Notes under the pieces: generated by a model
The model's database searches: none
What the model saw: only the letters and a program-made list of their open reading frames with translations
Told to the model about the DNA's origin: nothing
Program-made: the position numbers and the translations under genes
Shown here: positions 25,407 to 27,698 of the stretch, piece after piece
Layout of the letters: every line of letters begins with the position of its first letter
How positions within the stretch are numbered: position 1 is the first letter of the stretch
Assembly (NCBI GenBank): GCA_039555135.1
Contig: CP114179.1
Location: 1,426,001-1,490,000, forward strand
Direction of reading: 5' to 3'
From: Phycisphaeraceae bacterium D3-23
GTDB lineage: Bacteria; Planctomycetota; Phycisphaerae; Phycisphaerales; Phycisphaeraceae
Length of the DNA stretch: 64,000 nucleotides

Positions 25407-27698
25407 TCAGTCCTCCCACCGCCACCGCAGCCACAGCGCGTTGAGCACCACGCTCACCGAGCTCAGCGACATCGCGAGCGCCGCGAACATCGGGTGGATG
25501 ATGCCGATCACGGCGAGGGGGATCAGGAAGATGTTGTAGATGCTTGCCCAGAGAAGGCCGAAGACGATGCGGTGCATGGTTGCCCGGCCGAGCCGGACGG
25601 CGGCGGGGAGGTTCATCAGGTCGCTGCCGACGAGGACGACGTGGCCCGCATCCCGTGCGATGTCGGTGCCGCCGCCGATCGCGATGCCGATGTCGGCCTC
25701 GGCGAGCGCGGGGGCGTCGTTGATGCCGTCGCCCACCATCGCGCAAGACTTGCCCATGCCGTGCAGCCGGAGGATCTCGTTGCGTTTGTCGGCGGGCTTG
25801 ACCTCGGCGAGGGTGCGGGTGATGTCGAGGCGGCGCGCGACCTGGTCGGCGGCGCGTTGGGCGTCGCCGGTGAGCATGACGACCGTGAGCCCGAGTTTTT
25901 TGAGCGCCGCCACGGCGTCGGGCGCTTCGGGGCGGACCTCGTCGGCGAGGCCGAGGATGCCGACGGCCGTGTTGTCGATGGCGACGGCGACGACGGTGCG
26001 CGACGCGCGCAGGCGCTGATCGACCTGCTGCTCAAAGCCGTCGGGGATCGTGACGCCGTGCTCGCGCAGCGCGCCGAGTCGGCCGACGGTGATGACCTTG
26101 CCCTCGACGCTGCCGCGCACGCCCGCGGCGGTGAGGGAAGTGAAGTTGGTGACGGGCGGTAAATCGATAGGGCTTGCCATCAACGAGCCGCGACCGTCAG
26201 GGAGCGGACCCTGGGGTAGGGATTGACCACAGTGTTGATCCGCTCCCTCACGGTCGCGGCTCGTTTCGGAATCGCGGCTCGTGGTTGTTTCATAGTGCTT
26301 CACCAGTGCTTTACCGATCGGGTGCTCGCTGTCCTGCTCGACGCCGGCGGCGTAGCGCAGCAATGCACGTTCGTCGAGGCCTGCATCGAGCGGGACGATG
26401 TCGGTGACTTGCGGCTTGCCGGTGGTGAGCGTGCCGGTCTTGTCGAGCAGGATGTGTGTGAGTTTGCCGGCCCGTTCGAGCGCGGCGGGGTCTTTGATGA
26501 GGATGCCCCGCCGTGCGCCGATGCCCGTGCCCACCAGGATGGCGGTCGGCACGGCGAGCCCGAGCGCACACGGGCACGCGACGATGAGCACCGCGATCAT
26601 GTTGCTCAGGCCGCTGGCCCAGTCGTGCTTCACCAAGCCCCAGCCGACGAGCGTCGTCAGCGCGACCGCGATGACGGCGGGGACAAACACCCCGGCGACA
26701 CGGTCAGCTAAGCGCTGCACGCCGGCCTTGTTGGTCTGCGCCTGCTCGACCATCTCGACAATCTGACCGAGCAGCGTCTGCCCACCCGTCGCGGTCACTG
26801 TGAACTTGAGCGAGCCCGTCTGGTTGATCGTCCCGGCGAAGACGCGATCGCCCTCTTTCACGTCGATCGGCTCGGGCTCGCCGGTGATCATGGCCTGGTC
26901 GATCGTGCTGGAGCCCGACGACACCTTGCCGTCGAGCGGGATGCGGCCGCCGGGCTTGACGAGGACGGTGTCGCCTGTGTTGATTTTGGCGATCGGTGTT
27001 TCGTGTTCCTTGCCGAAGCGGACGACGGTGGCGGTCTCGGGCGCGAGGTCGCGCAGCCCGGAGATCGCGGACGCGGCGGACCGGCGGGCCTTGTGTTCGA
27101 GCGCGTGGCCGAGTGTGATGAACCAGAGGATCGCGCCGGCGGTGCCGAAGTGCCCCCCGGAAACAAGCCCGCCGGTGAAGAGCGCGACGACACTTGTGGC
27201 GTAGGCGACGCCGCTGCCCAGCGCGATGAGCGTGTCCATGTCGGCCCGGCCGTGGCGGAGGCCTTTGAGCATGCCGCGGAAGAACGGCCCGCCGAGCACG
27301 GCCATCAGCAGCGACGCGCCCGCGAGTTGGAGCCAAGGCCAGGCGCCGTGGTGCAGCCCCGCCATGTGCGCGGCCATCAGCGCGAGCGCGATCGGCAGCG
27401 TCCACAGCGCGCGCGGGAGCGCGGTCGCTCGGGGGTTGACACGTTTGCGTCGATTGTCGTCGACGCGGGGTGTGCTCGAGGCTTCGTTATCACCCAGCGG
27501 TTCCGCGTCGTAGCCTGCGGCCGTCACGGCCCGTGTCAGGTGAGACACGACGAGACCCCGGCCCGACACGGCGGCACGTTCAGTGGTGAGGTTGACCGCG
27601 ACGGTTTCGACGCCCTCGACCTTGGCCAGCGCCTTCTCGACATGCGCGACGCAGCTGGCGCAGTGCATCCCGCCGACGTGGAGTTCTGTCGTCTTCAC
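25407..27698 (-). CDS. copA: copper-translocating P-type ATPase
   Basis: A P1B-1 ATPase exporting Cu(I) across the inner membrane. It has one N-terminal heavy-metal domain (GMHCASC), six to eight membrane segments, the ion site IVACPCALGLAVPTA, the phosphorylation site LLDKTGTLTTGKP, HPIGKAL in the nucleotide domain and MVGDGINDAPALAEADIG. I chose the GTG at 27698 (VKTTELHVGGMHC); TTG at 27704 is an alternative, and the extension further up is encoded by a palindromic repeat. About 40 residues (TSRDREGAD... DGRGSL) are inserted in the nucleotide-binding domain by the in-frame palindrome at 26183-26266. 763 residues. No CueR/CsoR regulator is nearby. Confidence 0.93.
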   Translation of the reverse strand: MKTTELHVGGMHCASCVAHVEKALAKVEGVETVAVNLTTERAAVSGRGLVVSHLTRAVTAAGYDAEPLGDNEASSTPRVDDNRRKRVNPRATALPRALWTLPIALALMAAHMAGLHHGAWPWLQLAGASLLMAVLGGPFFRGMLKGLRHGRADMDTLIALGSGVAYATSVVALFTGGLVSGGHFGTAGAILWFITLGHALEHKARRSAASAISGLRDLAPETATVVRFGKEHETPIAKINTGDTVLVKPGGRIPLDGKVSSGSSTIDQAMITGEPEPIDVKEGDRVFAGTINQTGSLKFTVTATGGQTLLGQIVEMVEQAQTNKAGVQRLADRVAGVFVPAVIAVALTTLVGWGLVKHDWASGLSNMIAVLIVACPCALGLAVPTAILVGTGIGARRGILIKDPAALERAGKLTHILLDKTGTLTTGKPQVTDIVPLDAGLDERALLRYAAGVEQDSEHPIGKALVKHYETTTSRDSETSRDREGADQHCGQSLPQGPLPDGRGSLMASPIDLPPVTNFTSLTAAGVRGSVEGKVITVGRLGALREHGVTIPDGFEQQVDQRLRASRTVVAVAIDNTAVGILGLADEVRPEAPDAVAALKKLGLTVVMLTGDAQRAADQVARRLDITRTLAEVKPADKRNEILRLHGMGKSCAMVGDGINDAPALAEADIGIAIGGGTDIARDAGHVVLVGSDLMNLPAAVRLGRATMHRIVFGLLWASIYNIFLIPLAVIGIIHPMFAALAMSLSSVSVVLNALWLRWRWED
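26183..26266. repeat. in-frame 84-bp inverted repeat inside copA
   Basis: The 27-bp arm AACGAGCCGCGACCGTCAGG...GCGGA (26183-26209) is matched by its near-perfect reverse complement (26240-26266) across a 30-bp centre. A further partial copy of the arm end (CGCGGCTCGT) follows at about 26274. On the coding strand it reads SRDREGAD on one arm and PDGRGSL on the other. The length is a multiple of three, and the copA frame stays open. Confidence 0.9.

Follow-up and report, generated by a model that had tools for sequence, protein, structure and literature searches.

The gene for a copper-translocating ATPase in Phycisphaeraceae bacterium D3-23 carries, in frame, a palindromic insert that is probably a non-autonomous doublet of the REP type (here the SRDREGA element), spread by an HuH transposase whose most likely identity is a TnpAY1 of the class-3 type. 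The gene lies in the window, the whole stretch of 64,000 nucleotides that was analysed (contig CP114179.1, positions 1,426,001 to 1,490,000).

The element in CopA

The host gene, copA, encodes a P1B-type ATPase of 785 residues on the minus strand (25407-27764) and is recognised from its ORF and from family and PDB matches. The protein matches NCBIfam TIGR01511 in two stretches (E = 6e-164, the best spanning residues 158-493), and its alignment to PDB 3j09 covers residues 28-490 and 556-780, with a break between residues 490 and 556. The first aligned block stops at residue 490, the last residue of the conserved SEHPIGKALVKH segment of the nucleotide-binding domain (residues 479-490; 26295-26330, minus strand), which is directly upstream of the insert in the protein. 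In terms of the fold, the insert follows the helix that comes after SEHP, and the element itself forms residues 501-528. The ORF runs uninterrupted across it, which agrees with the open, in-frame read-through of the original prediction.

That prediction described an 84-bp palindrome at 26183-26266 with inverted arms of 27 bp. The palindrome is real and in place, with a length of 82 bp (26183-26264), and reads TSRDREGADQHCGQSLPQGPLPDGRGSL on the minus strand; the 27-nt arms were recovered at 26182-26208 and 26239-26265, 96% complementary and with 30 nt between them. The core of the element is formed by two inverted arms of 25 nt each, delimited by inverted-repeat and motif searches: arm 1, ACGAGCCGCGACCGTCAGGGAGCGG (26183-26207, plus strand), and arm 2, the same motif inverted, which reads ACGAGCCGCGACCGTGAGGGAGCGG on the minus strand (26240-26264). 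The spacer between them (26208-26239) starts with ACCCTGGG, as it does in several other copies. A truncated third arm (ACGAGCCGCGA; 26272-26282, minus strand) directly repeats the start of arm 2, and a comparable truncated arm adjoins another copy of the element, at locus L006. With up to three mismatches, the arm motif GCCGCGACCGTNAGGGAGCGG matches the window at 26187 (plus) and 26240 (minus) and nowhere else, against a chance expectation of 0.04 matches. On the coding strand the palindrome folds with z = -8.9 as DNA and -9.2 as RNA, and none of 200 shuffled sequences folds as well. Three of the six reading frames of the arm are free of stops for any base at N, and the other three contain a stop for some N only (NAG with T; TNA with A or G), so that read-through is easy.

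Two further repeats lie near the element. A long imperfect palindrome (AACCACGAAGGCACGAAG...CGTGCCTTCGTGGTT) occupies 25254-25404, between copA and the gene of an ABC-type ATP-binding protein. A separate inverted repeat at 27728-27756 (GAAGCCCACGTTCA/TGAACGTGGGCTTC) encodes the first residues of the CopA ORF (KPTFTERGL), and the true start of CopA may lie downstream of the ORF start.

A family of elements across the genome

The palindrome is not unique in the genome, and the SRDREGA and LP[DH]GRGS peptides are found again in other proteins, as the original prediction had anticipated. The single contig of 4.62 Mb (G000) contains 70 arm matches with up to three mismatches, compared with 3 for a reversed control pattern. 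Thirty-eight places were read. Of these, 32 are inverted pairs with a total length of 72-84 bp, and the other 6 are single arms; 31 pairs are thus built like the one in copA. The spacers are of two types, beginning GCGGACC and GCGGGGC.

Nine of the 32 pairs and two of the 6 single arms lie in frame inside genes, identified by ORF, codon score and family matches. The pairs are found in copA, miaB, the trmD-GNAT junction, clpB, tsaB, rsmA, valS, trmL and a beta-lactamase/esterase-like gene (whose family matches are under the curated cut-offs), and the single arms in por-alpha and in a TPR membrane protein. The remaining 27 places are intergenic or unresolved. Some copies were considered as possible frameshift disruptions of genes. 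At L019, L037 and L049 the coding frames differ on the two sides of the element, and these copies may mark gene borders; at L010 and L036 the best coding frame is the same on both sides, with no open ORF across.

The frame in which the element is read differs by host, yielding SRDREGA, EPRPSGSG or RAATVRER, so conservation does not lie in the peptide.

Empty sites and reuse of loops in relatives

The element is absent from all 18 CopA homologues aligned, drawn from 29 loci of relatives, the distant ones being putative orthologues. The CopA of the same-genus genome G002 offers a clear empty site. The protein studied here is longer by 31 residues than that of G002, and by 37 than those of L062 and L063. 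About 40 residues had been expected in place of a short loop, and the linker from HPIGKALVKH to PIDLPPV indeed measures 41 residues here and 10 in G002. The added stretch exceeds 84 bp because of the truncated third arm. The nearest named CopA records come from Phycisphaeraceae MAGs, at 61-62% identity.

The other hosts give the same picture. Among the nine genes that carry a pair, eight were recovered in G002, all of them without the element, and the ninth, tsaB, lacks it in both genomes available (G001 and G003); joined flanks served as the query against G001-G003. The whole of G002 contains 4 arm matches. G002 has remnants similar to the single arms of por-alpha and the TPR protein, and these two insertions therefore seem older.

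A very stable RNA hairpin could slow translation in several housekeeping genes, and selection might then maintain the stretch in CopA as a functional domain or a regulatory hairpin, in place of mere tolerance of mobile DNA. This is very improbable in view of its absence from every aligned homologue, including that of G002, the presence of the same DNA in unrelated proteins, in frames that yield different peptides, and the low confidence of the AlphaFold model at residues 504-532. The model is mediocre as a whole (7 sequences, mean pLDDT 64.8, pTM 0.47) and was used for these residues only. The loop made by the element is more plausibly disordered and tolerated.

In a sister species, the trmL loop is filled by another sequence, GGTGILPV...RQDACATG, whose peptides also flank the RAYT (see below) in valS of the genome studied here. 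In G003, the rsmA loop holds LPAGEGPGVRG...SPRPSPVGGGEG, which we take to be a repeat, where D3-23 has its SRDREGA element. Since both loops are filled otherwise in the sisters (L140 and L157, compared with L003 and L038 here), different inserts reuse the same loops.

In this genus trmD and a GNAT acetyltransferase form an in-frame fusion (L012 in D3-23, L161 in G002, L168 in G001). The linker in D3-23 holds the SRDREGA element. The element was considered as the maker of the fusion and rejected, as G002 and G001 are fused through a linker with no recognisable element.

A candidate transposase

A survey of Y1 transposase genes in 16 relatives gave eight genes in open frames of 1216-1373 aa, each of which is a valyl-tRNA synthetase (ValRS) with an in-frame transposase, all at one site. 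Seven of these eight transposases fit the class-3 motifs given in PMC6006769 (NHVH, W[TA], YV..EQ), with some deviations at HuH (DHVH, NHAH, NHIH); the assignment is based on these motifs. The HuH histidines and the tyrosine are invariant in the alignment of the seven domains, from which a model (A1) was built. Searched over 298 genomes of the class, probably Phycisphaerae, A1 matched 177 at E ≤ 0.001. The seven domains and 28 of the 30 best A1 loci, the other two being loci already met in the first survey, make up a set of 35 distinct class-3-type domains, which are the top-scoring hits of a ValRS-nested model and not a random sample.

SRDREGA arms lie on both sides, converging, of 27 of the 35 class-3-type domains (up to 4 mismatches, within 400 bases); the 8 domains without arms on both sides count against the link. 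Arms on both sides were found at none of 28 distinct loci of other Y1 transposases (31 rows, three of the own loci having two rows each), of which two (L102 and L108) have one arm on one side, and at none of 315 random positions in other loci, a weak control since many of those genomes are armless. Across the 298 genomes, arms occur in 42 of the 59 with a strong class-3 hit (E ≤ 1e-40) and in 69 of the 239 others (p = 4e-9, with kinship ignored). This leaves 17 strong class-3 genomes without any arm at up to one mismatch, and the 69 armed genomes that have no strong hit imply that another enzyme could act in trans. A class-3-type HuH transposase is the likely mover of the element.

The link rests on relatives, as the genome of D3-23 has no good class-3 match (best 1.5e-6). 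It has three Y1 transposase genes above the Pfam cut-off, and its 32 pairs might instead be mobilised in trans by one of its own RAYTs (L032, L033, L034 or the one in valS). The presence of such enzymes in a genome rich in pairs, together with the eight pairs shown absent from G002 and the few arm matches there, speaks for this. Each of the own RAYTs is, however, flanked by other inverted repeats (judged by eye), no SRDREGA arms were found at their flanks, and arms on both sides are confined to class-3-type genes among the Y1 loci compared, which makes mobilisation by an own RAYT unlikely.

The size and inverted ends of the element also agree with a MITE of a DDE-type insertion sequence, which would have terminal inverted repeats and a target duplication, and longer inverted flanks are common to several copies of the GCGGGGC type (by eye). 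Inspection by eye of the 32 pairs showed no conserved target duplication, the empty sites being too diverged to define one; single arms exist, and it is HuH genes that the arms flank. A MITE is accordingly a highly unlikely reading, and spread by a class-3-type HuH enzyme is preferred.

Transposases nested in essential enzymes

The ValRS nest lies directly before the conserved L.F.P.RYA...WCISRQLWWGH segment. Among the 35 class-3-type domains, 23 are in frame inside a host protein: 13 in ValRS, 7 in alanyl-tRNA synthetase (AlaRS) and 3 in a DUF1156 protein. No recognised gene encloses the other 12: eleven lie in frames no longer than 237 aa, and L186 lies in one of 469 residues. The AlaRS cases (L172, L178, L180, L183, L184, L185 and L188) use two different sites, and in G142 two class-3-type transposases occupy one AlaRS frame. 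The DUF1156 genes (L174, L177 and L182) form one family (f9) and contain arrays of SRDREGA/GRGSD-like repeats in frame.

The nested synthetases examined are present in a single copy. Val_tRNA-synt_C has one match per genome in 14 of 14 genomes (D3-23, G052 and all but G119 of the 13 whose ValRS holds a class-3-type domain), and the match is on the nested frame in 12 and on another contig in G048 and G194. AlaRS matches are confined to the nested frame in all seven AlaRS cases.

An ATG or GTG lies within 12 codons upstream of the domain in all 12 domains that are not nested and in 3 of the 23 nested ones (p = 5e-7). Seven of the nested domains have no ATG, GTG or TTG in the 45 codons upstream; the other 16 have at least one, and TTG or more distant starts are possible. 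In the relatives the enzyme usually has no obvious start of its own, and we infer that nested transposase and synthetase are expressed as a fusion.

Distances between hosts and between inserts are correlated for 12 ValRS that share the nest (Mantel rho 0.51, p = 0.015), pointing to descent that is in part vertical; the AlaRS nest gives no such signal (n = 5). In the tree of class-3-type domains, 5 of 32 forks are well supported.

The ValRS of D3-23

The only ValRS found in D3-23 is a minus-strand ORF of 1314 aa (L139; G000:C1:1596500-1603500). At the ValRS nest it holds a different RAYT, which is in frame and bordered by 24-nt inverted repeats; it also carries an SRDREGA doublet directly before KMSKS. 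The RAYT is above the cut-off of NCBIfam NF047646 (REP_Tyr_transpos), under that of Pfam Y1_Tnp (17 bits; no match at 0.001), and 47% identical to the RAYT in L032 over 147 residues. In G001-G003 the nest is occupied by a short linker. The nest has plausibly been emptied and then refilled by different types of transposase. The class-3 gene of the present genome was presumably lost, and since no good class-3 gene is found and the nest holds a different RAYT, the SRDREGA copies of D3-23 are probably orphans.

Proposed mechanism of spread

The hairpin-based cut-and-paste scheme is taken from IS200/REP biology. The element, with its two inverted 25-nt arms and variable spacer, would be dispersed around the genome by a single-strand transposase of the HuH kind: the arms would fold as hairpins on single-stranded DNA and be cut and pasted by a class-3-type enzyme. 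That this enzyme carries out the transposition is our inference from the flanking arms in relatives. Landings in genes would mostly be lost, and the survivors would be those in permissive surface loops, with lengths that are multiples of three and no stops. A transposase gene lying between such stop-poor arms could land in the same way; its product would from then on form a domain of an essential enzyme.

Relation to known systems

The SRDREGA element resembles the REP/REPIN doublets associated with RAYT (TnpAREP) in being a short imperfect palindrome arranged in inverted pairs and present in tens of copies, and in the Y1 HuH transposase gene that its repeat flanks, here in relatives. It differs in lacking the tetranucleotide tag, as no GTAG was seen by eye beside the arms of the 32 pairs, and no fixed CGTC tag either, the base that precedes the left-side ACGA being A, G, C or T. 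It is also tied to a TnpAY1 of the class-3 type instead of a class-2 RAYT, and the gene of the linked enzyme frequently lies in frame inside a synthetase.

As described in PMC6006769, class-3 TnpAY1 occurs mainly in Planctomycetes, Acidobacteria and Proteobacteria, and its genes are flanked by structures, which can be high-copy; the repeats have a 5' CnGA foot. SRDREGA arms likewise flank class-3-type genes; the arms begin ACGAG, in which no clear CnGA foot could be made out. The words 'valyl', 'tRNA synthetase', 'fused' and 'in frame' are all absent from its main text, and unexpectedly long proteins were dropped in that study as fusions or annotation errors. No literature on a transposase in frame inside ValRS or AlaRS was found by title or by the start of the abstract.

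Palindromes in frame inside unrelated genes are known from intragenic GTAG/CGTC REPs and from Rickettsia palindromic elements (RPE), as set out in PMC3733652. SRDREGA shares this habit with the elements described there, and differs in its tags, its planctomycete host, its likely cognate transposase and the nesting of that transposase. The likeness to RPE proposed in the original prediction holds as a mode of life, as the copies in frame in unrelated genes show, and need not reflect descent. In our reading, the CopA element adds a case to this RPE-like way of life, and the system as a whole is a new form of REP/TnpAY1.

Biological significance

Inteins and IStrons are likewise selfish elements that reside in a host gene and bring a DNA-cutting enzyme; in contrast, the insert of the SRDREGA system is assumed to stay in the product. 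A wider proposal, to which we give an even chance, is that a class of single-strand transposases lives, mostly lacking an obvious start codon, as an in-frame internal domain of the sole ValRS or AlaRS in numerous members of one bacterial class, where it is protected from loss and seeds REP doublets that land in frame in further housekeeping genes as well. If this is true, loss of the nested transposase by frameshift or stop would kill the cell, and the parasite would rely on read-through instead of splicing.

Although palindromes in frame inside genes are not new, they have rarely been connected with a mover; here there is a likely one, often inside essential translation enzymes. The proposal offers a testable answer to the persistence of single-copy REP transposases, and the nests suggest that insertion of an entire enzyme is tolerated by ValRS and AlaRS. 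Because the trmL and rsmA loops hold other inserts in sister species, such genomes may show, as a natural map, where housekeeping proteins tolerate insertions.
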